Positions 1 to 20,927 of a stretch of 21,508 nt of DNA are shown here, piece after piece (position 1 is the first letter of the stretch; every line of letters starts with the position of its first letter). The position numbers were made by a program, and so were the translations under genes. The notes below the pieces were generated by a model that was not told the origin of the DNA, did not search any database, and saw nothing but the letters and a program-made list of their open reading frames with translations. Source of the stretch: a virus; IMG/VR virus record IMGVR_UViG_3300042556_000803, positions 1 to 21,508 of that record. The stretch is one strand, 5' to 3'.

Positions 1-2713
1 CACGCTGCTTTGGCGTAACCGTGACTGGCTTGCCGTCGGGCAGGGTTGCGCCCTCATCGGCAAGGGCAACCTGATTGACCAGTGCCAGAATCTCCTCGCT
101 ACCGATTCCGCCGAAGGAGTCCGGGCGATTTGCGGCGGCATCCTCCTGCTCTATCTCCATGATCGCAAGGTCGATCGCGGCGATAGCATCGAGATATCCC
201 TGCTTCCCAAGTTGGGAAACAGCGCGACTCATCGCGGCCTTCGACTCCGGCGTGACCGGGCCGATGATGTTGCGGACGGTCAGTCTTTCCGGCTGGGCAG
301 GCGCTGGAGCCGGAGCCGCAGCCGGAGCAGGAGCAGGCGCGGGAGCCGGAGCAGGGGCCGGGGCTGGCGCAGGTTGACCAGCAGCCGGGGCCGGAGCCGG
401 AGCCGCAGGTGTTGCGGCAGCAGGCGCAGGCGCGGGCTGAGGGGTGGGCGTCGCAGTGGACGCGGGGGCCGGCTGGGCCGGTTGCGGCTGGGACATGGCC
501 GCCTCCCGTGCGGCACGCATGACCTCAAGGCCACGCTGCGCGGCCTCGATCGTGAACCCGAACTTGCCCGGGGTGTACGCCTTGTTGTTCTTGGCCGCCT
601 CTTGTAGGCCACGGTACAACTTGAGCGCACTCATCGCCGAACGACCACGGACGCCAGCGCGAATCAGCATCTGGTTGAACCAGCCGGGTACGGCGTCGCC
701 ACGGAAGAGCGCCTCGGTGCCGTTCTGGATCAACTGGGCAACACCCTCGACCTCGGCCATCGTGCCGGCCATTCGCTGCTCGATCGCGCCAACCGCGTCG
801 GTTGATCCCGCCTTGCCCTGCGACTGAGCAATGATCTCGGCGATCGAACGCCGGACGACCGGGTCGATGCCGGCCTGCTGCGACCAGTAGTTGGCCGCCG
901 CCTCCAGCATTGACTTGTCGTCCACCGTGCTGCGAAGGGCAGCCCACAGGCCACTGTCGCTGAACTGCGCCCAGTGCGTGATCTCATGGAACGCGAGGCC
1001 CATGATGCCAGCGAACGTGCTGTTGCCATCGGCGCGAAGGAACACGGTGTCTGGTGTCTGCCCGCTGAAGAATGCAGGCTGCGATTCGGCAGCACCGTCG
1101 TACCACTGGACCTTGAATCCAAACTTCTCGATCTGAGCCTGTGCTGCCTTCTGCTGCTTGGTCGAAGCCGAAGCCGGCTGGTAGTTCATTCCCGCAAGGA
1201 TGTCGGTCGCAGACATCTGGGTCGTCGGGCGGGCGCTCGACGCAATACTCGCAGCACTGAGATAGTTCAGTTGCGACGCTGAGTAATCGGCAGCCGTTGT
1301 CGCGGCAACCCGCCGCGCATTCTCCAGTGCTGCTTCCAGCGTAGATACTTCGCCCTCAATAGCCTGAGTGCGCTGCTGATCCTTGCCTCGGCGTGATCGT
1401 TCCAGTTCCTTGCGCTTCTGTGCAACCTCGGCGCTGGCATTGGCTACTGCCTCCTTGGACCGGGCGAGATCCGCGCCGGCCTGCATCAAAGCCTGCTGGG
1501 ATCGCTGTTCTTCTACGAGGCGTTCCTGCGGCGTCATCGCGTCGAGAGCCGCTGCACGCTGCGGGAGGATTTCGCGGATGTATGCAGGATCGGCGTACTT
1601 GCTGCCGGCCTCGCGAAGCAGACGATTGGTCTCGCGACGCTTGGACAGTTCGACCGGGATGTTGATTGCGCCAGCGCCGAAGCCGCCGAACCCGCCGTAG
1701 AGAGCGTCCGTCGCAGCCTGCGAGAACACGTCGCCCCACGACTCGACCTCCATACCGGTGATCCCGGTCGCCTTCACACCGGCCTGCAAGACAGGCACGA
1801 GACCTTCCTCAAGGAAGTTAGCCCCGTACATCCCACCAACAGTCTTGACGATTCCCCTCGCACCCGGCTGTGCGAACCACTGAGCGACCCCGGTCTTGGC
1901 AAGTTTCTGGGCAACCCCAGCGCCAATCCACTCGGTCACGCCTTCGATCGCCGCGCTGGTAAGGCCAGCCGTCACCTTCTGAAACTGGCTGTAGTCGCCG
2001 GTCGTCAGGCCGGCAGCGAACGCCTGCTCGTACTCGTCAATGCCGCCGCCGTAGCCCTGCAAGCCCATCGCTGCAATGCCAACATACGGGCTGGCCGCGA
2101 ACGCAACCGCGCTGTACGCGCCGCTGCCGACCGCCATACCGATGTTGCCGGCGATGCTGCCCTCGGGGATCGCCTTGGCAGACTCGCGCTGCGCTCCACT
2201 CCAGAATGCGTCCGGCCCATACGGCATCAGATTGCTGGCACCGCGAATCGTGCTGATAACGCCCTGCGTCACGCCAGCCTTGATGCCCTCGCCGAACATT
2301 CCGACGACGCCGGTATCGGCCATCTCGGCCTCGCGAGCCACATCCTGCTGTTCCGACTCGCGCTGAATCAACTTGTCAAGGAAGCCGATCTGTTGCTGCT
2401 TCAGATCCGCCTCTTGCGGGGTGAGGATGCCAGACGCAAGTTCCTCTTCCAGTTCGTTGCGCGTGTAGATCGTCTTGGCCCGGTCGATGAACTTCGTCAC
2501 ATCGCCGAACTCTTCAACCACCCCGCCAATCGACAGCAGATTCGTGGGGTCAATGCTGCCGGCCATGTCGGCGAACGCACGACCAAGGTCCATGAACTTC
2601 CGGTCCTCGGTGGATCGCTGACCAAGAGCCTTCTTGCTCCTCCGGTACTGATCCAGCGACTCGGCCAGTGGGTCAGTGCCGTCAGGCTGCGGGAAGAACG
2701 AGAATTGGCTCAT
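1..2713 (-). CDS. Giant internal virion (ejection) protein with HExxH zincin motif, C-terminus cut off by window edge
   Basis: The frame is open from ATG 2713 to the left edge: 904 codons with no stop. ATG follows the previous stop by 2 nt. Residues about 175-260 and 335-350 are Gly/Ala-rich and hydrophobic, which could suit membrane insertion. About 400-475 look coiled-coil. Residues 576-580 read HEITH inside GLAFHEITHWAQF, the zinc-binding helix of gluzincin-type metallopeptidases; E654 or E656 (MAEVEGVAQL) are candidate third ligands. Residues about 740-808 are a Pro/Ala linker, followed by a further helical region. As the last and largest gene after the nozzle and three smaller ejection candidates, it sits where T7 keeps gp16, but I see no lytic transglycosylase motif in the visible part. 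The peptidase is therefore inferred to help DNA passage through the envelope or to mature virion proteins. Frame and motif are certain; ejection role and activity are inference. Confidence 0.8.
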   Translation of the reverse strand, partial: MSQFSFFPQPDGTDPLAESLDQYRRSKKALGQRSTEDRKFMDLGRAFADMAGSIDPTNLLSIGGVVEEFGDVTKFIDRAKTIYTRNELEEELASGILTPQEADLKQQQIGFLDKLIQRESEQQDVAREAEMADTGVVGMFGEGIKAGVTQGVISTIRGASNLMPYGPDAFWSGAQRESAKAIPEGSIAGNIGMAVGSGAYSAVAFAASPYVGIAAMGLQGYGGGIDEYEQAFAAGLTTGDYSQFQKVTAGLTSAAIEGVTEWIGAGVAQKLAKTGVAQWFAQPGARGIVKTVGGMYGANFLEEGLVPVLQAGVKATGITGMEVESWGDVFSQAATDALYGGFGGFGAGAINIPVELSKRRETNRLLREAGSKYADPAYIREILPQRAAALDAMTPQERLVEEQRSQQALMQAGADLARSKEAVANASAEVAQKRKELERSRRGKDQQRTQAIEGEVSTLEAALENARRVAATTAADYSASQLNYLSAASIASSARPTTQMSATDILAGMNYQPASASTKQQKAAQAQIEKFGFKVQWYDGAAESQPAFFSGQTPDTVFLRADGNSTFAGIMGLAFHEITHWAQFSDSGLWAALRSTVDDKSMLEAAANYWSQQAGIDPVVRRSIAEIIAQSQGKAGSTDAVGAIEQRMAGTMAEVEGVAQLIQNGTEALFRGDAVPGWFNQMLIRAGVRGRSAMSALKLYRGLQEAAKNNKAYTPGKFGFTIEAAQRGLEVMRAAREAAMSQPQPAQPAPASTATPTPQPAPAPAAATPAAPAPAPAAGQPAPAPAPAPAPAPAPAPAAAPAPAPAQPERLTVRNIIGPVTPESKAAMSRAVSQLGKQGYLDAIAAIDLAIMEIEQEDAAANRPDSFGGIGSEEILALVNQVALADEGATLPDGKPVTVTPKQR
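290..496 (-). repeat. Pro/Ala-rich low-complexity linker encoded by hexamer-like repeats
   Basis: Inside the giant ejection protein, residues about 740-808 are almost only Pro and Ala with a few Gln, Thr and Gly. The DNA is a degenerate repeat of units like GGAGCC, GGAGCA and GGGGCC (plus strand). Such linkers are extended and flexible, and they separate the zincin-containing part from the C-terminal region. The repeat can change length by slippage. Confidence 0.85.
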
Positions 2714-2715
2714 GT

Positions 2716-4083
2716 TCAGTTTCCAGAGATTGCCGCGTATGCCTCTTCGATCAGTGCAGGATCGACGCCGTACTTCCCAAGATGCTCAGGCCCGTTCGCC
2801 TGCATCTCATTGTATAGACGTTCGATCATCTTGAACGCCGTTGCGCGTTCATTCTGGTCGCTGCTGCGAAGACGTGAGAAGTACGGATTCTGGGCAATCA
2901 CTTCCAGCGCATTGCGACTGCGGCTCGACAGTCCGCGCACGTCAGCGGGGGCTGGCTGCGACGGCTTGCCGCTCGATGTCTTGGCCGAAGCAGTCGGAGC
3001 AACAACCTGCTGGTCGATCATCAGGCCACCACGCACGCGAGCGATGGCATCCATGATGACCTCGACATCCTGCTCACCAGCCGGCCCCCAGCCCATCGCG
3101 CCGGAGACCTCGTTGAACCGCTGCATGAACTGCTGGAACGTGTTCGCATCAGTAGAACCGTTGGTGACAGATGGCAGCGCAACCGGGCGAGTCATGCCCG
3201 GGAGCAAGCCCTGACGCATCGCATCGACGACCATCGCCAAAGCCATCGGATTCTGCTGCTGCATGGCCCACATTGGCATAGTCATCGTGCGCGGCGTGAT
3301 CCGGTCGCCCTTGGGCCGCATCATCGACATCGCCATATTCACGGCGTTGGCCGCGTTCTGGTTGCCCTGCTCTGACAAGGCAGCAGCGTGCCTTCCAAAG
3401 GTCATGGTTCGACCATCAGCCTGAGCGTCGTCGAGGGCAGACATGGCCTCGGCAAACGACGACGGCACTTCCTGACCACGGTAGACGGTGTAGTCCTCGC
3501 GCCCGGCGCGTGCCTTGATGAACGATTGCAGTCCGCTCATAGCCATGCCGGGGTCCATGTCGTACAGAAGGGTCAGGTATTCGCCGACGATCGGATCCTG
3601 ACTTTCAGACACACGCGACGAGAGTGCGCGGAACTGGCCGGCGAAAGCCTGCTTCTTGGCATCGAGTTCGCGCTGCTGTCGCAACTGGGCGCGAGCGTCG
3701 TCGCGGCTCTGGATCATACCCATCCACTGCGGAAACGTCACCTTGATGACCTGCTCCTGACCGTCCTCGTCCATGAAGGACACGGCTGGCGTACCGCGCA
3801 CGGTGCCGAACCGAAGCATCTCAAGACCCTGAACGTCGCCCTGCTCGATGCCGGCAACCGCCTTGCCGAACGACGGCTGGCCCGCAATGGCCGGATCACC
3901 GACAGCCCAACTCGGGTTGCGGTTCATCCGCTCAAGGACGGAATCAATCTCACCCAAGAACTGACGGTCGCGTTGCTCGCTGGACGCCATCGGGCGAGAC
4001 TGCTCAGGAGCGCCGGATCCGGCCTGAACCGGGAACCCGTCAAGATCCTGCATCATCGATGAGCCAAGGGGTTGTTGCGGCAT
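2716..4083 (-). CDS. Putative internal virion protein, 455 aa, unknown function
   Basis: I do not recognise a family. ATG 4083 is preceded by GAGG with 5-6 nt spacing, and the gene lies 7 nt after the previous stop and 2 nt before the giant ejection protein. The protein is soluble-looking, mostly helical, and rich in Met, Gln and Ala, with the low-complexity start MPQQPLGSSMMQDL. Around residues 255-300 there is an unusual Met-rich stretch (AMSMMRPKG, TMTMPMWAMQQQNP). A Ser/Pro/Ala-rich spacer near residues 360-385 precedes a compact C-terminal helical region. No signal peptide or catalytic motif is visible. Position among the genes after the tail nozzle suggests a virion ejection protein, analogous in place to T7 gp15, but this rests on gene order only. 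Confidence 0.8.
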   Translation of the reverse strand: MPQQPLGSSMMQDLDGFPVQAGSGAPEQSRPMASSEQRDRQFLGEIDSVLERMNRNPSWAVGDPAIAGQPSFGKAVAGIEQGDVQGLEMLRFGTVRGTPAVSFMDEDGQEQVIKVTFPQWMGMIQSRDDARAQLRQQRELDAKKQAFAGQFRALSSRVSESQDPIVGEYLTLLYDMDPGMAMSGLQSFIKARAGREDYTVYRGQEVPSSFAEAMSALDDAQADGRTMTFGRHAAALSEQGNQNAANAVNMAMSMMRPKGDRITPRTMTMPMWAMQQQNPMALAMVVDAMRQGLLPGMTRPVALPSVTNGSTDANTFQQFMQRFNEVSGAMGWGPAGEQDVEVIMDAIARVRGGLMIDQQVVAPTASAKTSSGKPSQPAPADVRGLSSRSRNALEVIAQNPYFSRLRSSDQNERATAFKMIERLYNEMQANGPEHLGKYGVDPALIEEAYAAISGN

Positions 4084-9477: not shown

Positions 9478-9596
9478 CACTTCTTCTTGAACGCGCTGAC
9501 CGGCCAGATGTGCGCCAGCAGATAGCCGGCACAGAACGTCAAGCCTGCGAACCAGATTGAGCCAAGAAGGCTCTCGATGCTGCCAAGGATCATCAT
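9477..9596 (-). CDS. Small single-TM protein, holin candidate, 39 aa
   Basis: This reading frame starts at ATG 9596, overlapping the stop of the upstream spanin candidate (TGATG). The product starts MMILGSIESLLGSIWF, continues with a hydrophobic helix to about residue 33 and ends in three lysines (SAFKKK). One transmembrane helix with a short basic tail is the shape of small phage holins and pinholins. The neighbourhood (coiled-coil TM protein, then lipoprotein/TM spanin candidate) fits a lysis cassette. The sequence is too short for family assignment. It could equally be an accessory membrane peptide; the tight coupling argues it is translated. Confidence 0.6.
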   Translation of the reverse strand: MMILGSIESLLGSIWFAGLTFCAGYLLAHIWPVSAFKKK

Positions 9597-10081
9597 CACT
9601 TGCTCCTACGCTTCGGGATCAGACTCCTGAGCAACGCGCCCAGAGATGCTCCGATCCCCGTATGCACCAGCATAAACGCGGCAAGGGCCATCAGCCCCAA
9701 ACCGACTACAAGACTGATCAGACTTGCCCACCAAGGCGTGGTGTCCTTCACGGACGGCAGGCTGCCAACGATGTCCGTGGTCTCGGCGTGGATCTCGCTG
9801 GACAACACCATGATCTCGTCCGCCTTGCCGGCGACATCAGACACCACCACACGGGACGCCTCGATGCGCTCGACGGCCTTGCCCGGATCCTGCTGCTCGC
9901 CGGCCAAGTAGCCGTGTGCGGCGGCCAGATTCTCGTCGATCTGTCCGGCCAAGACGGTCAGTTCGCGGGCCTTGTCGGTGATCGACTGAGCCTGACTGCT
10001 GATTGCCGACGCGCTGTCTGCGATCTCCTGCGTCCCGCTGGAGCAGGAACAGAGCAGGAGTGCCAGAAGTAGGAACCTCAC
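9596..10081 (-). CDS. Unimolecular spanin (u-spanin) candidate: lipoprotein signal plus C-terminal TM, 161 aa
   Basis: Start is GTG 10081, overlapping the previous stop as GTGA, with GGAGGA about 7 nt upstream. The N-terminus MRFLLLALLLCSCSS is a short lipoprotein signal; the likely acylated cysteine is C13 (L-C-S-C), with C11 an alternative. Residues about 16-112 are a polar, Ala-rich, mostly helical region. Residues about 117-140 (WWASLISLVVGLGLMALAAF) are a transmembrane helix, and the tail ends in basic KRRSK. One protein anchored by a lipid in the outer membrane and by a C-terminal helix in the inner membrane is the definition of a u-spanin, as in phage T1 gp11, which fuses the two membranes at the end of lysis. 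No sequence similarity to T1 gp11 is claimed; the T1 ectodomain is described as beta-rich, this one looks helical. Confidence 0.7.
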   Translation of the reverse strand: MRFLLLALLLCSCSSGTQEIADSASAISSQAQSITDKARELTVLAGQIDENLAAAHGYLAGEQQDPGKAVERIEASRVVVSDVAGKADEIMVLSSEIHAETTDIVGSLPSVKDTTPWWASLISLVVGLGLMALAAFMLVHTGIGASLGALLRSLIPKRRSK

Positions 10082-10354: not shown

Positions 10355-11797
10355 TCACGTCTTGGACATCAACGACATCATCACGCTTCCGGCAACTGCG
10401 TCGTAACCATTTGCCTGAGTGTTGGTTGCGAACGTCAGGTGCGCCTGTTGTTCTGCCTCTGTGCCGCCGATCGACGAATACAAGCGTCCAGCCGGCTGTG
10501 ATCCGTTGAGCAACTTGTATGCGGGGTAGGCGACAGCGATGTCAACAACGGAAATGTTCGACGATGTCCTCGTCTGGGCGTATTGGTTTGCGTTCGTCGC
10601 CAGAGCAGGACGCGCACTCAGCCACGGGTCAACAGTGTTGGGATGGCTGATGCTGAACACAAATGCCAGATTTGACCGGCTGCCACCACCGGAAACCCAC
10701 CGCTCGGTGATGCGATTCACGATGCGGTCAGCGGCAGCAGTCCACTGGGCAGCAGTTTCCGGCTGATTGATTCCACTGTTGACGTAGACCAGAAGGCGTC
10801 CACTTCCGCCATGAGCCTTCTGCCGCTCATAGAGTTCCTTGAGGTACGAATCAAGCAGGTTACCCATCCCCTCGATTCGATCTGCAAGTTCACCAGTCTT
10901 CTTGCCGCCGTCATAGATCAGTGGGTTGACCGCGTATCCCTTGAATGACCTGCGGACAACGCTGTGCCACAAGCACGCAAACGGACCAGTCGTCGATGCC
11001 GACTGAGCCAAACCATCCCACCCGCACCGGTTCTCAACAACTGGGCTGCGAGAGGCAAAGTCAAGTGTCGTTGTCCCGTACCAATTACCGGCTGAACCTC
11101 CGGCAGTCGAAACGAACGAAGAAGCAACGGTCGATCCTGAACTCGACCAGACGACCGGCTTGAACTGCCCTCCGGTAGTCGTGAACTTTGCATACACAAC
11201 ACGGTACTGGCAGTTGGTCGAGCCGGATCCCGTACCAATGTTGATCAGATTGGTCGATCCAAGACCAATGTAGTTTTGGTTTGCAGGCGACGTGTAGGTC
11301 ACGCCAGACGCAACGAACCCAGCATCCCAATTCAAGCCGGCGAACTTCGGAAGGATAGAGGTATCGATAGAGAGATTGCTGATCACTGCCGCTGCGTTGG
11401 CATCTGGAACAGCAGCAGCGGTAACCAGCAAACGGACGGTTCCTGTGCTTCCAGCCTGACCATCAGAAGGTGTCGTATACGTTAGACCAGCACCGAACAT
11501 AGCACTGGTCCACGCGCCAGTGCTGGCAACGGCTCCGGGAAACAGCGGAGTTGCATAGGCATTGACGCCACCGAATGAACTCAGGTATCGATGAATACCA
11601 GCAGTATGTCCGTATGAGGTAGTAACACCTGCATCTGAGTAGCCCATGTTGCTATCGCCGATGGTGACGATGTCAAGGCTGTCAGTCGAGTTCAGAAGAT
11701 CGCGCAACATCGAACCTGCGGTCGTGCTGCCATACAAGGCAGGACCAGTAGCAGTCTGTTGCGCGACCTGAAGAGGTCTATCCCTGATTGTTCGCAT
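10355..11797 (-). CDS. SGNH/GDSL hydrolase-like virion-associated esterase candidate, 480 aa
   Basis: ATG 11797 has a strong GAGGAG 5 nt upstream. Near the N-terminus, LDIVTIGDSNMGY (S49) is the block I GDS motif with the catalytic serine. VYVNSGINQ (N344) fits block III, and H453 in EQQAHLTF fits the catalytic histidine of block V, although the usual acidic residue three positions before the His is not clear. A beta-rich insertion of about 250 residues separates blocks I and III and could bind carbohydrate. SGNH enzymes remove acyl groups from polysaccharides and lipids; in phage particles they de-O-acetylate capsule or O-antigen. Its place between three surface-like proteins and the lysis genes supports a virion-attached depolymerase-type role. 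Enzyme family is well supported, substrate unknown. Confidence 0.75.
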   Translation of the reverse strand: MRTIRDRPLQVAQQTATGPALYGSTTAGSMLRDLLNSTDSLDIVTIGDSNMGYSDAGVTTSYGHTAGIHRYLSSFGGVNAYATPLFPGAVASTGAWTSAMFGAGLTYTTPSDGQAGSTGTVRLLVTAAAVPDANAAAVISNLSIDTSILPKFAGLNWDAGFVASGVTYTSPANQNYIGLGSTNLINIGTGSGSTNCQYRVVYAKFTTTGGQFKPVVWSSSGSTVASSFVSTAGGSAGNWYGTTTLDFASRSPVVENRCGWDGLAQSASTTGPFACLWHSVVRRSFKGYAVNPLIYDGGKKTGELADRIEGMGNLLDSYLKELYERQKAHGGSGRLLVYVNSGINQPETAAQWTAAADRIVNRITERWVSGGGSRSNLAFVFSISHPNTVDPWLSARPALATNANQYAQTRTSSNISVVDIAVAYPAYKLLNGSQPAGRLYSSIGGTEAEQQAHLTFATNTQANGYDAVAGSVMMSLMSKT

Positions 11798-11806
11798 GAT
11801 GTCTCC

Positions 11807-12382
11807 TCAGATGGTGTACCAGAGGCAACCCATGTTGCTGCTTCCGCTTGACTTGAATTGAAGCATCACGATCTCACTGCCCATCGTGTCGATGACGGCG
11901 TGCGCCGGAGCCGTGTTGGCCGCAGAAGCAACCCCGGGGCTGTACAGGCTAACCGTGGGCGTTCCGCCAGCAGCAGTCATGGCCGAATAGAAGTACGCGG
12001 TCGATGCCGTACCGTCGAAGTTTGCATAGGACGGAATGCTCCCGACGGTCGTGTTGTAATCCGGAGTCAGATCAGCCAGAAGAGTTGCGGTCCACAGAGT
12101 GAGGCCACCGGACTGACCGTATGAGTTCCACCCAATCACACGAACGCCCTGACCGGTTGCGTTGTTGGCGAAGTGGAATGGAACGATCTTCAGCAACGAC
12201 GGACACGCTGCTGTTTCGGTGTAGATGACAACGGACTGGCCGGTCGTTGTTGGGCGAGTTTCGGTCAACGACGCCGCCGGGTAATTGGCAGACGCAATGG
12301 TGACCTGAGCCTTGGAGTTGCGACCTTGCAACGTGCAGGAGAACGAGGATGAAGCAACTGCTTTTTGTGGGTGTAGTGCCAT
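11807..12382 (-). CDS. Third paralogue of a tandem beta-rich structural protein family, 191 aa
   Basis: ATG 12382 has TAGGT upstream, the TAG being the stop of the previous gene. The protein is Ala/Ser/Thr-rich, probably all beta, with no signal or TM segment. It is a diverged relative of the two preceding genes: the central VRVIGWNSYGQSGG matches their QVLGWSYS / QLIGWNWS, and its C-terminus (IVMLQFKSSGSSNMGCLWYTI) lines up with their last 30 residues. It lacks the PLPxxYEILPVEGL motif found in both siblings. Tandem copies between head-tail adaptor and esterase suggest virion surface or tail accessory proteins. No known family is recognised, so function is inferred from position. Confidence 0.75.
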   Translation of the reverse strand: MALHPQKAVASSSFSCTLQGRNSKAQVTIASANYPAASLTETRPTTTGQSVVIYTETAACPSLLKIVPFHFANNATGQGVRVIGWNSYGQSGGLTLWTATLLADLTPDYNTTVGSIPSYANFDGTASTAYFYSAMTAAGGTPTVSLYSPGVASAANTAPAHAVIDTMGSEIVMLQFKSSGSSNMGCLWYTI

Positions 12383-13749: not shown

Positions 13750-14484
13750 TCAAGACGGGTTCTGGGTGAACCTCGGGATGATGCTCACCCCGTAGCCGAT
13801 CTCGTAGGACGGACGCAGGCGACCGATGTCTCGCTGGAGGATCCCGTCCTTGGTCAGCGCACCGGCCAAGATCGGGCCGGCGTCGATCTCAACCAGACGC
13901 TGCGACAGTCCCTCGTCTTCATACGCCATGCCGAAGGCGCGGCAGTACTGGATGAAGAGCGAGTCGCAGTACTTGGGGATCGGGATCTCGTACGAGTCGG
14001 CAGCGCCGCTGGCAATCTCCACCCATCCGGCGCGGTAACGCACGGCGAGAGCGTCGGTTGCGGCGGCAGTCGGGGTCGGGAAGAGTTCAAGGCGTGCCGG
14101 GTTCAGGGCAGAACCGGCAGCGTTGGCTACACGGGACAGACACGCATAGGTGACGCCGTGGCCCCCGCTGTCGATGCTGATCTCGCGCAGGTTCTGGAGA
14201 TGGTCCGGCGTGACCAACTCGATGTTGAACCCGATGTTCTCGCGGTTGATCAGGCTGATGATCTCCTCCACATCGGACGGGAGGGACACATAGTCCTGAC
14301 TGGCGACGAGGCTGATGAACGCGCTGGTCCGCTCCCTGAACCGCCACGGGCGCTGGAACAGGTACTGGCCGGCTTGGTTGACGACTTCTGCCAGACGTTC
14401 GGCGTTGGTCTGACCAGCAGCAAGGCTGGGGTACCCGCCGACGGCGAGCAGGACGTGACGCTTGACCTGTGCGAAGGTGGGCAT
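13750..14484 (-). CDS. Head-tail adaptor (T7 gp11 / P22 gp4-like), 244 aa
   Basis: The protein begins MPTFAQVKRHVLLAVGGYPS and continues with a helical N-terminal half (NAERLAEVVNQAGQYLF, PWRFRERTSAFISL, VSLPSDVEEIISL). Podovirus adaptor proteins have this pattern: helices that dock under the portal plus a beta segment for the tail. The C-terminal part includes a beta segment (ALAVRYRAGWVEI) and YCDSLFIQYCRAFGMAYEDEG, then a tail that could dock into the portal. It lies after portal, scaffold, capsid and decoration genes, where the adaptor is expected. Adaptors form a 12-mer ring joining the portal to the nozzle. Assignment is by pattern and order, not by search. Confidence 0.7.
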   Translation of the reverse strand: MPTFAQVKRHVLLAVGGYPSLAAGQTNAERLAEVVNQAGQYLFQRPWRFRERTSAFISLVASQDYVSLPSDVEEIISLINRENIGFNIELVTPDHLQNLREISIDSGGHGVTYACLSRVANAAGSALNPARLELFPTPTAAATDALAVRYRAGWVEIASGAADSYEIPIPKYCDSLFIQYCRAFGMAYEDEGLSQRLVEIDAGPILAGALTKDGILQRDIGRLRPSYEIGYGVSIIPRFTQNPS

Positions 14485-15149: not shown

Positions 15150-16442
15150 TCAGGAGAGGTTGATCGGGGCGACGATGCCCTGACGCTGACGGCTGTTGCA
15201 GAACAGGTTCCACCAGCAGTCCACCACCTGAACGTAGGTGAACGGCTGGTTGGGGTGACGCAGCACTTCGTGCTTCTCAAAGTAGCGGCGGCTGTGGAAG
15301 ATCGGCGTCAGGTAGTTGCCGTTGACCCACCAGTAACGCGCTCCGCTGTCGATGACCGACGCACCTTCCTCGGTGGCACCGGTCGTCGTGCTTGCGGCAG
15401 CGATGTCGGTGCTGTGGTTGACACGGGCGGTTGCACCGCTGGGGTAGATCGCAGCGGTGTCGAGGTTGGAGCAGTACATCAGTTCGATGCCGCTGTAGGT
15501 CGGCGCGTTGTACGCCGGATCCTGATACGACACCAGCGTGTCATTGCTGGCACGCAGAGCCTGCTTGTAGTTGTTGATCCCGATGCGCGAGCAGAGGATC
15601 ATCTGGCGGTTCATCGAGGGCTTCTCAAAGTACTCGGCGCGGGTGCTGGGAGTACGGAAGTCCAACTTCAGGAACATCTCGTCGAAGGCCGGCAGCAGGC
15701 CGCCGATGCGGGCGCTGTAGGTCGTCGAACCGTCACGGACGTTCTCGATGCCCGTCTTGGTCACGGGGGCGAGGTTGGGGTCCGTTGCACCCGGGTCGTA
15801 GTACGAGATCTGGTTCGACCAGCGGTTCTCGCTGGTGGGGTCCAGATTCATCACGTTGGTCCAGCCCAGCGGAGCGCCGCCACGGGGATCGCCGAAGACG
15901 CTGGTGAGCAGCGGGGCTTCGGTGATGAACGAGGCGAGCGAGAACGGCAGGCTGCCGGCGTTGCCCTCCATGTTGGAGTAGTTGCCGAACGGAGTCGCCC
16001 ACAGGTCGTTCTCAAACCCGTTGGTCAGCGAGGTCCACATGCGCTGTTCCTTGATCCGCTTCAGACGCTTGTACTGCGCCTTGACGTAATCGCGGGTCGA
16101 GCCGGAGCCGCTGTTGAGTTCCACTTCGTGATCGGTCCACGCCATGTGGTCGATCGAGAAGCGCCACGGCGCACGCACCGTGTCGGTCACGTTGGCGTTG
16201 CGCCAAGTGAACGTGTCGTTGGGAAGGTAGTGATCGTAGGTCGATGCGTCATCGAACATGATCACGTCGCGGATCTCGTTGCCGCCCTGCACCGTGGCTT
16301 CGCTGGTCTTCTCCTTGAGAAGGCGGCTGAAGGCGTAGGTGTTCTTGACGGCCTCGTTGATCACCTGATCGGCGCTGGTCAGGTAGGTGGGACCAGTCGC
16401 ATTCATGAAGTCGTTGAAGGTCTGAATCGGGGTTCCGGGCAT
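15150..16442 (-). CDS. Major capsid protein, 430 aa
   Basis: ATG 16442 lies 7 nt after the scaffold stop with GTGAG upstream. The protein starts MPGTPIQTFNDFMNATGP and has a helical, charged N-terminal part (KNTYAFSRLLKEKTSEA), a basic helix (YVKAQYKRLKRIKEQRMW), long beta-rich and loop regions, and a conserved-looking aromatic C-terminus (FTYVQVVDCWWNLFCNSRQRQG). About 430 residues is normal for a podovirus coat protein, and the order portal - scaffold - this gene - strong hairpin is the standard head module. An HK97 fold is expected from the gene order. It has no recognisable T7 gp10 similarity, and the exact family is not identified. Confidence 0.85.
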   Translation of the reverse strand: MPGTPIQTFNDFMNATGPTYLTSADQVINEAVKNTYAFSRLLKEKTSEATVQGGNEIRDVIMFDDASTYDHYLPNDTFTWRNANVTDTVRAPWRFSIDHMAWTDHEVELNSGSGSTRDYVKAQYKRLKRIKEQRMWTSLTNGFENDLWATPFGNYSNMEGNAGSLPFSLASFITEAPLLTSVFGDPRGGAPLGWTNVMNLDPTSENRWSNQISYYDPGATDPNLAPVTKTGIENVRDGSTTYSARIGGLLPAFDEMFLKLDFRTPSTRAEYFEKPSMNRQMILCSRIGINNYKQALRASNDTLVSYQDPAYNAPTYSGIELMYCSNLDTAAIYPSGATARVNHSTDIAAASTTTGATEEGASVIDSGARYWWVNGNYLTPIFHSRRYFEKHEVLRHPNQPFTYVQVVDCWWNLFCNSRQRQGIVAPINLS

Positions 16443-17358: not shown

Positions 17359-17655
17359 CTACTCCTTCGCATACCCGTGCCTCGACATCACCTCACGTTC
17401 ATGCCTACGAGACATGATCACTGGCTTGCCTTGGCTGTTCGTCGTGCATCCCTCAAGGTTGCGAGGTAGCGACGACGACACATACGGGTACTGGGAGCGG
17501 TTCGTGGCTGGGTCGATCTGGTAGTCAGCGACCACCCTCGTCAACACACGGCCATCCACCTCGACGGTTGTGCCAATGCTGGGAGCCTCAGACATCGAGT
17601 ACATCAACTCGACAGTCTCGCCATTGGCCTCGTCGATGAAAGGGTACAGGGGCAT
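17359..17655 (-). CDS. FmdB-like small protein lacking zinc cysteines, 98 aa
   Basis: ATG 17655 overlaps the portal stop (TGATG). The N-terminus MPLYPFIDEANGETVELMYS followed by MSEAPSIGTTVEVDG has the outline of the FmdB zinc-ribbon family (MPLYEY..C..C..FE...M...P......C..CG), but the four zinc cysteines are absent; the only Cys is in GCTTNSQGKPV. The second half contains YPYVSSSLPRNLEG and a basic C-terminus (MSRRHEREVMSRHGYAKE), a pattern I recall from small phage proteins next to portal genes. Function is unknown. A structural or assembly role is possible from its place between portal and scaffold. Confidence 0.7.
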   Translation of the reverse strand: MPLYPFIDEANGETVELMYSMSEAPSIGTTVEVDGRVLTRVVADYQIDPATNRSQYPYVSSSLPRNLEGCTTNSQGKPVIMSRRHEREVMSRHGYAKE

Positions 17656-19397
17656 CAGCGCCGGCCCTCAACTTCTGAAATAATTTCTTGCATGGACCGG
17701 GGTTGCGCCATGCCGGCCTGAGCGCCGGCGGCGGCCTGCTGGGCCTGACCCCGCATCTGCTGGACGGCACGCATGTCGATCATGTCGCCCAGATTGGGCA
17801 TATTCATCGCGTTGCCGACCACCGACAGCACCTGCTTCCAGTCCACATGCGGCGCAGCCACCACCGCCTGACTGATGTTGCCGATGACCTGAAGCAACTC
17901 GACCGACCGGCGCTGGAGCAGACCCTCGCTGACCCGCTCCATGCTGTACGCCTCCACGTCGATGTCGAGGTCGTCAAACACCCCAACCATCGCCATCGCG
18001 GAGAAGATCGGCTCCGGCTCGCCCATGATGGCAATCCCGTCCTCGCCAACCGGGAACACCACCTTGTCGTCGTAGAACATGAACCAGCCCACCGACCGCA
18101 GGCAACGGTTCACCGACTCCTGAAACTGACGCTTCAGGTGGCTGATCCGAAGGCCGCTGGAACTCTCCGCCACCTGCACCTCGGTCGCCGTGGCGTTGCC
18201 GCTCACATTGCCGCGCATGGCGTCGTGGATGCCAGACACCCGGTCCAGACGGTCCTGAGCCATCGCCGCGTACTGGACCTGCTGCGCCGTGATCCCGCCG
18301 ACCTCGATCGTGCGGAGCGCGTCAGGGTCAAGGTTGTCAGCCAGCACCACATACAGATCCTCGCGGTCGCGGATGTCCTGCGCCATCTTGGCGTTGCGTG
18401 CGTCCACCGCCAGCAGGCGCTTGTACGCGCTGGCGCTGTACCGCATGTTCCGAAGGTGCATGTTCACGTCGTCGATCTGCGGCATCAGAGCCATGATCGG
18501 AGACAGCGGGTACGGATCTTCAGGCACCGTATACACACCGAATACCGTATACGGCCCGGTCCTCGGCCCGTAGTACGGACGCGGCGCACGGGCCATACCC
18601 ATATTCGCCGGCTTGCCGCTCTCAGCCTGCCCCTTCACCACCGTGTAGATCGTGCCGTTGAACATCGCACGATCCGTCACGGAGTCGATCAACTCCGCAG
18701 CCTCGTCGTGCAGTTCAGGCACCCACACCTCGTACACCACCAACTCCTTGCGGTCGGGGATGTTGCGGTCGATGTCTACGTCGTCGCGGACATCGCTGAC
18801 CCCAGTGTTGGCAGCCACGCGCTCGATCACGTCGATGTCCCAAGTCTTGTCAGACTCGGCACTTGCGAGCAGGTCGTCGCGGTCAGAGATCCAGCAGTGG
18901 CCCATGTACCGGGCCTCGTCCAAGTGCGTAGCAGCCGGGTCGATGAAGAACCGGTCCGGGCTGATCCGGTACACCCGGGGCAGGTACGGATCCTCAGTCA
19001 GGCTCGTCACATAGCCCTTGCGCGGCTCGTTCACGGTCAGCGCCACCCCGTAGGCCAGCAGCATATCCGTCGCAATCCGCTCAAGGGTGTTCCGAATACC
19101 CACCATCTTGCACCACCGGTTGATGCCAACCTGCAACACGCCGGCAGCCTCCGACTGGCTGACCGGCCTCGCGCTCTTCACGCGCACCGTCGGGTTGTCA
19201 TGCACGATCCGGGGCAGCAACAGGGCGATGTACTCAAGGATGAAGTTCTCCGGGTCGTCCATTTGCTCCCTCGACTCGCGGTAGGACGGCCCGTGGAAAC
19301 GCTCGATCAGGCTCTTCCACTCCACAAGATGAGTGTCGCGGAACGATTCCGCGCTCTCGATCTCGCGCACCAGAGAAGCCAGATCGAACTTCATCAT
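17655..19397 (-). CDS. Portal protein, 580 aa
   Basis: The start is ATG 19397 or the adjacent ATG 19394; both overlap the preceding stop (ATGATGA). The sequence has the podovirus portal layout: a helical N-terminus (VREIESAESFRDTHLVEWKS), a region with LEYIALLLPRIVHDNP and VGINRWCKMVGIRNTLERIA, a wing segment with DPYLPRVYRISPDRFFIDP, a stem-like helix near LSPIMALMPQIDDVNMHLRN, and a Gln/Ala-rich C-terminal helical tail (MRGQAQQAAAGAQAGMAQPR) that would form the barrel. Portals are dodecamers at one capsid vertex, through which DNA is packaged and ejected. Length, position before scaffold and capsid genes, and composition all agree. Confidence 0.85.
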   Translation of the reverse strand: MMKFDLASLVREIESAESFRDTHLVEWKSLIERFHGPSYRESREQMDDPENFILEYIALLLPRIVHDNPTVRVKSARPVSQSEAAGVLQVGINRWCKMVGIRNTLERIATDMLLAYGVALTVNEPRKGYVTSLTEDPYLPRVYRISPDRFFIDPAATHLDEARYMGHCWISDRDDLLASAESDKTWDIDVIERVAANTGVSDVRDDVDIDRNIPDRKELVVYEVWVPELHDEAAELIDSVTDRAMFNGTIYTVVKGQAESGKPANMGMARAPRPYYGPRTGPYTVFGVYTVPEDPYPLSPIMALMPQIDDVNMHLRNMRYSASAYKRLLAVDARNAKMAQDIRDREDLYVVLADNLDPDALRTIEVGGITAQQVQYAAMAQDRLDRVSGIHDAMRGNVSGNATATEVQVAESSSGLRISHLKRQFQESVNRCLRSVGWFMFYDDKVVFPVGEDGIAIMGEPEPIFSAMAMVGVFDDLDIDVEAYSMERVSEGLLQRRSVELLQVIGNISQAVVAAPHVDWKQVLSVVGNAMNMPNLGDMIDMRAVQQMRGQAQQAAAGAQAGMAQPRSMQEIISEVEGRR

Positions 19398-19950: not shown

Positions 19951-20844
19951 TTAGTTCGCCTCCGTGAACGTCGCGATCAGCCGCATCCCATCGTGCTTGG
20001 TGTCGGCCATCGTCAACTTCATCCACATCGCACCCTGCGGCTTCGGCGGCTTCCCGGTCTCGACGTGCCAGCCACCCCAGCCGTCATTCCACTCCTGCTT
20101 GTAGGAGGGCGTCCGAACATGGTGCTGCTCCGTCAGGCCAATCCGGTAGTCACCCTTGGTGGTGACCAATCGCTCCCTCATCAACTTGACGTGCCAGTGG
20201 TCGTGCGTGTGGCCGCTCACCACCACGTCGGCGTCAGGCAGCCACGACGCCATCCGCCGGGTCGTCAACACCCCGTGGCTCATCGGGCCACCACCCCCGC
20301 TGCCGTGGAACCAGCGCAGCCGCAGGTTCACCTCCGTCGTACCCCACACCCGCGCACGGAACACCACCCACCCGCCGTACCCGCTCGCTACCACAGGGAC
20401 GCCGCTGATCTGCGACATGGCACCGCACAGGCGCTCCGTCAGGTCCACCTCATGGCGCTTGGTGATCGCAGTCTCATGGTTGCCACGCCCGATGCACGCG
20501 AACTGCTTCGCATACGGCGCGTAGAACCGCGCAGCGTCGCGCACGATCGCATCGAGGTAGTCCGGGGCGAGCGCATATTCATCTCTGATCTCGCCTTTTG
20601 AACTTCTAGGATCCCAACGCCCACCCATGCAGTCGAACAGGTCACCACAGTCCAGCACCGTCGCGTTGCGCTCGACGGCCTGCTCAAGGTGCTTGCGCTC
20701 CAAATCCCAGTCCGCATGGGTCGAATCGTGGTGCCTGTCGCTCGACAGCAACACCCAATGCTCAAACTCCGACGGGCGGACGCCCTCGATCTCCACGACG
20801 TGGATGTTCCGGGTCTTGTGGTGGACCTTCCAGTCGTGGGGCAT
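19951..20844 (-). CDS. Calcineurin-like metallophosphoesterase, 297 aa
   Basis: The chosen start is ATG 20844 (MPHDWKVHH); a TTG two codons earlier is possible. The full metal-binding set of the calcineurin-like phosphoesterase superfamily is present in order: SSDRHHD (D36, H38), DCGDLFD (D68), GRGNHE (N122, H123), WFHG (H180) and SGHTHDH (H212, H214). These residues bind two metal ions such as Mn or Fe/Zn and hydrolyse phosphoester bonds. The substrate may be nucleic acid, nucleotide or protein phosphate. Phages often carry such enzymes near packaging or DNA metabolism genes. It follows the 26-aa hydrophobic peptide by 2 nt and precedes a 97-bp gap. The family is very secure, the substrate unknown. 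Confidence 0.9.
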   Translation of the reverse strand: MPHDWKVHHKTRNIHVVEIEGVRPSEFEHWVLLSSDRHHDSTHADWDLERKHLEQAVERNATVLDCGDLFDCMGGRWDPRSSKGEIRDEYALAPDYLDAIVRDAARFYAPYAKQFACIGRGNHETAITKRHEVDLTERLCGAMSQISGVPVVASGYGGWVVFRARVWGTTEVNLRLRWFHGSGGGGPMSHGVLTTRRMASWLPDADVVVSGHTHDHWHVKLMRERLVTTKGDYRIGLTEQHHVRTPSYKQEWNDGWGGWHVETGKPPKPQGAMWMKLTMADTKHDGMRLIATFTEAN

Positions 20845-20846
20845 CG

Positions 20847-20927
20847 TCAAATCTTTCGCATCTCGCGGATGATCATGCAGACCATCAGCAACTGGAAACC
20901 GATGATCGCCAGCACCGCAGCAATCAC
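20847..20927 (-). CDS. Hydrophobic micropeptide candidate, 26 aa
   Basis: This reading frame starts at GTG 20927 with GGAG 6 nt upstream and stops 2 nt before the phosphoesterase ATG. The product is nearly all one transmembrane helix (MIAAVLAIIGFQLLMVCMII) with a charged end (REMRKI). The frame is open back to the stop of the 36-aa gene, so a longer version from TTG 20966 with an acidic leader (AREEEAEQ) is also possible. It could be a real small membrane protein or only a leader that couples translation to the phosphoesterase. Without it, 128 bp here would be empty in a tightly packed genome. Confidence 0.4.
   Translation of the reverse strand: MIAAVLAIIGFQLLMVCMIIREMRKI

Follow-up and report, generated by a model that had tools for sequence, protein, structure and literature searches.

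Does the HEITH motif in a truncated terminal gene of a freshwater phage mark a metallopeptidase, and if so, what would the enzyme cut? The phage, which is of the short-tailed type, is represented by a 21.5-kb IMG/VR virus record (IMGVR_UViG_3300042556_000803; 21,508 nt), taken over its whole length and referred to here as the window. A minus-strand open reading frame (ORF), 2..2713, remains open to the contig end and encodes 904 amino acids (aa), with GLAFHEITHWAQF at residues 572–584. We found that it carries an intact HExxH motif, which is under selection. The motif lies within the constant portion of a giant modular protein whose gene is grouped with those of the virion. The HEITH region very probably represents a zincin-like domain of a polyvalent protein. 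This domain is an addition, invisible to family libraries, to the known metallopeptidases (MPTases) of such proteins.

Conservation of the HEITH motif

A preliminary description of the window had placed HEITH at residues 576–580 of a protein of more than 904 residues, and the motif was located exactly there. The length holds for the ORF; however, this is only a contig-end fragment, the whole genes encoding 2,894–3,365 aa. The 904 aa contain two histidines, both within HEITH, and 0.0003 occurrences of HE..H are expected from the protein composition; the motif is therefore beyond chance.

The conservation set included 12 sequences, namely, the window and 11 IMG/VR relatives, which fall into two clades at ~62% identity in the motif region. 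The residues H576, E577, T579, H580, W581, Q583, F584, E654 and E656 are unchanged in all 12, and the motif context in the family is HE[IL]THW.QF. The codons of H576 (CAT/CAC) and of E577, E654 and E656 (GAG/GAA) vary synonymously, with the residues unchanged. Thus, the two His residues and both alternative Glu residues that had been proposed for a metal site (H576, H580, and E654 or E656) are kept in 11/11 relatives. Within the clades, the ratio of nonsynonymous to synonymous substitution rates (dN/dS) for residues 505–705, the zincin region, was 0.07–0.12, similar to that of the N-terminal scaffold (0.11–0.16).

The HEITH-type motif provides the sole His residues within the first 940 aa in 10 of the 12 sequences, while L009 and L022 have one extra each. 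Since some of the 12 sequences are fragments stopping before residue 940 and other structural proteins of the window are likewise His-poor (0–2%), this contrast is strong but not unique. That HExxH arose by chance in a structural protein of helical type would agree with the fact that no family library recognises the domain, but the low expected count, the confinement of His to the motif and its invariance with synonymous codon change bring this explanation close to refuted.

Predicted structure and the third metal ligand

The core of the polyvalent-protein MPTases consists of an N-terminal helix, three strands and the HExxH helix, and their third ligand is a Glu on the second C-terminal helix (PMC5512222). 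The first AlphaFold2 (AF2) model of our domain, based on a six-row family alignment, contains helix 30–41, strands 45–50, 58–61 and 64–71, and helix 78–96 (domain numbering), which bears HEITH (87–91) and is followed by further helices. The second model, for which eight further giant-protein zincins were added to the alignment, repeats this element order. From helix 30–41 to the start of helix 78–96, the predicted local distance difference test (pLDDT) score of the first model was 65–87 per ten-residue block. Thus, the helical position of HEITH, anticipated in the preliminary description, agrees with AF2, which places the HExxH helix after an N-terminal helix and a three-stranded sheet with moderate confidence.

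When the first model was compared with viral models by Foldseek, the top two matches were large polyvalent proteins (probability 0.99 and 0.92, E-values 1.4e-3 and 0.016); against the PDB, no zincin was found. The second model matched ArdC (rank 2), YfcM (rank 3), serralysin-type alkaline protease (rank 4) and abylysin (rank 5) in the PDB, so that three of its first five matches are zincin-type proteins (all but YfcM among those named); none is significant, and these matches carry a caveat because the extra alignment rows were giant proteins picked by their motif. We suggest that the AF2 and Foldseek results support the zincin assignment, as backing rather than proof.

Among the candidates for the third ligand, E654 and E656 lie on a predicted helix, and neither varies. 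E626 was ruled out as an invariant ligand: clade 1 has E626 and Q630, whereas clade 2 (relatives L010, L011 and L022) has Q and E at those positions. The exchange corresponds to a shift by one helical turn close to the putative active site. A non-peptidase metal enzyme of the HExxH type would be compatible with a third ligand that is not fixed and with the YfcM match, and HExxH also occurs in alphaKG-HExxH domains (cited in PMC12633501). However, the MPTase group is the better fit to the element order and to the setting in a large polyvalent protein, and such an enzyme is highly improbable.

Constant ends and exchanged middle of the giant protein

The gene is complete to the stop codon in six relatives (2,894, 3,080, 3,086, 3,095, 3,105 and 3,365 aa). 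In all six, the N-terminal 736 aa include the zincin; a Pro/Ala linker comes next, then the exchanged middle and finally a constant C-terminal part of ~1,040 aa. The linker past the protease domain, already named in the preliminary description, is present in the window as well. The exchanged part covers residues ~940–2050, and the N-terminus and zincin are constant. For example, L008 and L009 share 95% identity over residues 1–736 and 96% over the C-terminal 1,095 aa, with no detectable similarity in the middle (~1,000 aa) except for two short stretches.

The middle contains ART-PolyVal (ADP-ribosyltransferase of polyvalent proteins) in L004, L007, L009, L011 and L022 (E-values of 7e-11 to 3e-21) and DUF7178 in L004 and L009. 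Domains of disparate activity are thus combined in one protein in the complete relatives, and the window stops before these modules. The module borders often bear [FSYE]AR, as in VVSARQPA and SILYARD. This motif lies within 20 aa of 15 of the 45 border clusters, with 5.5 expected, an enrichment that we treat as a lead only, since the motif was picked after inspection and the borders are not independent.

In L009, a 22-nt exact direct repeat (11127–11148 and 11811–11832) encodes the linker SARQPAA and flanks a module of ~228 residues. The module is absent from L004, where a single linker copy is found. Compared with each other, the two show clearly how a module can be gained or lost where a linker is repeated.

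Proposed role of the zincin-like domain

No domain is commoner in polyvalent proteins than the zincin-like metallopeptidase (Iyer et al. 2017, PMC5512222). The preliminary description had treated a protease in a giant ejected protein as a surprise; this is already a published theme (PMC5512222), and the N4 virion RNA polymerase (vRNAP) also has an HExxH domain (PMC12633501). The options discussed are an effector role and self-processing, which might take place before packaging (as proposed from P1 DdrB), within the head or once the protein has entered the cell (PMC5512222).

We suggest the following course of events. The polyvalent protein of ~3,000 aa would be packaged and ejected with the DNA, as its late virion gene position and precedent indicate. 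The zincin domain may cut its own polypeptide, rather than the cell wall, in the inter-module linkers, in the head or after entry, and the self-cleavage would free cargo such as the ADP-ribosyltransferase. Since the constant protease lies beside exchanged cargo, housekeeping on its own protein fits better than an arms-race target. Taken as a whole, a divergent zincin that cuts its own chain in an ejected protein of this size is an account we slightly favour; that self-processing is the main task of the domain has, in our estimate, an even chance. The published polyvalent-protein zincin MPTases form 12 clades (PMC5512222). A narrower version, in which a zincin of a new clade cuts the giant ejected protein at the [FSYE]AR linkers and these linkers are both cut sites and DNA handles for module exchange, is unlikely.

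The location of the domain in the constant, scaffold-like part could also suit a packaging or structural role, in which encapsidation or ejection assembly would need the zincin fold but no cutting. However, the catalytic E577 and both His residues are kept in 12/12 sequences in a near-His-free background, which pure structure does not require. We rank this role after self-processing, as a possible but clearly less probable explanation.

Effectors are among the domains of polyvalent proteins, and the ART-PolyVal modules in the protein studied here are probable examples. In line with this, the zincin may act after ejection on host envelope, regulatory or defence proteins, an option given in the 2017 survey (PMC5512222). 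However, the modules resembling arms-race elements are swapped in the middle, while the zincin is retained together with the constant N-terminus (dN/dS of ~0.1). The analysis revealed neither a target nor a link to defence, and PADLOC found nothing. The cutting of host envelope or defence proteins, which the preliminary description had considered, is possible in principle, with no specific support found, and we regard an effector protease as rather unlikely.

Several points weigh against self-cleavage by a zincin as proposed above. The domain has no sequence match in Pfam, PHROG, NCBIfam or the PDB, and AF2 confidence is low (mean pLDDT of 57.6 for the first model and 61.8 for the second). The third metal ligand is not narrowed to one Glu, with E654, E656 and E626 as candidates; of the "textbook gluzincin" helix described earlier, a zincin-type HExxH helix under selection stands, but not a fixed Glu ligand. 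The N4 vRNAP with its HExxH-type domain is packaged uncut (PMC5512222). In addition, the 91% obtained by hhalign against other HE.THW.Q-bearing giant-protein zincins (gut-phage-like) stems solely from the motif by which those proteins had been chosen: it fell to 0.1% when the motif was masked, and column shuffles keeping the motif alone gave 87–94%. Therefore, no sequence kinship to these giant proteins is claimed.

Library searches and comparison with known systems

The Pfam profile check of the protease region, recommended in the preliminary description, gave no family match, and the score of PF18818 (MPTase-PolyVal) for the domain was not above the curated cut-off. In hmmscan, PF18818 was also silent on P1 DdrB and N4 gp50, so its missing match does not exclude the wider MPTase group. 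Since Pfam as a whole also misses the HExxH domains of P1 DdrB and N4, its silence is uninformative here. A profile comparison with the P1 DdrB zincins gave 3%. Using tblastn with the N-terminal 904 aa against annotated phages, no homologue was retrieved, and one further search gave chance matches only; none of the 27 pattern matches in bacterial genomes was confirmed as a relative.

It should be added that the HExTHWxQ DNA pattern finds many giant phage ORFs among the loci L057–L157, encoding up to 3,493 aa (e.g., L109 and L062). It also finds a widespread family of small proteins that contain VHEMTHWLQQTTG; for both groups, kinship to the zincin-like domain is unproven.

As in the polyvalent zincin MPTases (P1 DdrB, ArdC, TraC1; PF18818 for some), the HExxH helix is predicted after a three-stranded sheet, and the family protein is likewise a large late phage product of several domains, with ART-PolyVal fused to it. 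The window domain differs from them in lacking a PF18818 match, in its motif context HE[IL]THW.QF and in having candidate third ligands only. N4 gp50, the giant ejected vRNAP of 3,500 aa, has been solved and has an HExxH domain, C1 (PMC12633501). Both giant proteins are encoded beside virion genes (ejection being established for N4), but the zincin is C-terminal in N4 and N-terminal in the window protein. No Pfam match to a vRNAP domain was obtained in the complete relatives, while N4 gp50 itself matches four.

The giant proteins of Limnohabitans phage DC33 and of the environmental phages ctQRb9 and ctEw122 (2,792–3,209 aa) occupy the same genome position, carry ART-PolyVal and show 42–53% identity to the middle region of the window protein's relatives. 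In contrast, they have their own LHETAH zincin in the middle of the protein and LPD22 at the N-terminus, without the N-terminal HEITH-type domain. The DC33 record (PQ492659.1, L023) is filed under Inoviridae; its genome has 39 kb and a 9.4-kb giant gene similar to those of podovirus-type genomes, and the label looks wrong.

The preliminary description had assigned the protein to the position of T7 gp16. The gene order is indeed similar, the giant gene being the last large one of the virion block and its product possibly ejected, but homology was rejected. Nothing matches gp16, the complete relatives, with their ART-PolyVal and DUF7178 modules, belong to the polyvalent proteins, and a transglycosylase (SLT) domain was not found by Pfam or PHROGs in the 904 aa or in the complete relatives. 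The latter are more than twice the size of T7 gp16.

Neighbouring genes

Based on Pfam and PHROG searches, the neighbours of the giant gene are virion genes (Table 1), and the giant gene closes this block in transcription order. Neither residues 1–480 of the protein nor the product of the gene directly upstream had a match in Pfam or PHROG.

Table 1. Features of the window discussed in the text.
Feature	Position	Strand	Remarks
N-terminal 904 aa of large polyvalent protein	2..2713	-	Gene cut by contig end; relatives 2,894–3,365 aa
Start of post-linker region, residues 811–904	2..283	-	98–99% identical to L009 and L005; adjoins the exchanged modules of relatives
Pro/Ala-rich linker past zincin domain, residues ~741–810	284..493	-	
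Predicted zincin-like metallopeptidase domain, residues ~505–705	599..1201	-	
E654 and E656 (AEVEG)	746..754	-	Invariant third-metal-ligand candidates; predicted helix
E626	836..838	-	Also considered as third ligand; clade 2 has Q
HEITH, residues 576–580	974..988	-	Holds the sole two His of the 904 aa
Constant N-terminal region, residues 1–480	1274..2713	-	Gly/Ala-rich at ~135–350; charged helical at ~400–480
Gene directly upstream of giant gene (transcription order)	2716..4083	-	455 aa
Probable tail/stabilisation protein, 717 aa	5702..7855	-	Upstream in virion block; assigned by gene order alone, compared with the ctQRb9 and ctEw122 genomes
SU10-type adaptor	13750-14484		Family matches (Pfam/PHROG searches)
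Major head protein	15150-16442		Family matches (Pfam/PHROG searches)
Portal	17655-19397		PHROG head-tail adaptor and portal families

Two further genes were noted on the minus strand. Upstream of the portal gene, 19951–20850 encodes a metallophosphatase or DNA repair exonuclease-like product (Pfam Metallophos, phrog_7339), which is unusually His-rich (7%). Inside the virion block, a short ORF (9596–10081) starts with VRFLLLALLLCSCSSG, a lipoprotein-like signal followed by a membrane helix; it is possibly a lysis gene of the spanin type.

Significance

Standard profile libraries miss zincin domains of this kind. The 2017 survey left open whether polyvalent metallopeptidases cut themselves, cut host proteins or help in packaging (PMC5512222). 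The family described here is a favourable test case for these options: the presumed active site holds the sole His residues of the N-terminal third, phages that are nearly identical share a constant protease part and differ in their cargo, and a recognisable linker is found at the module borders.
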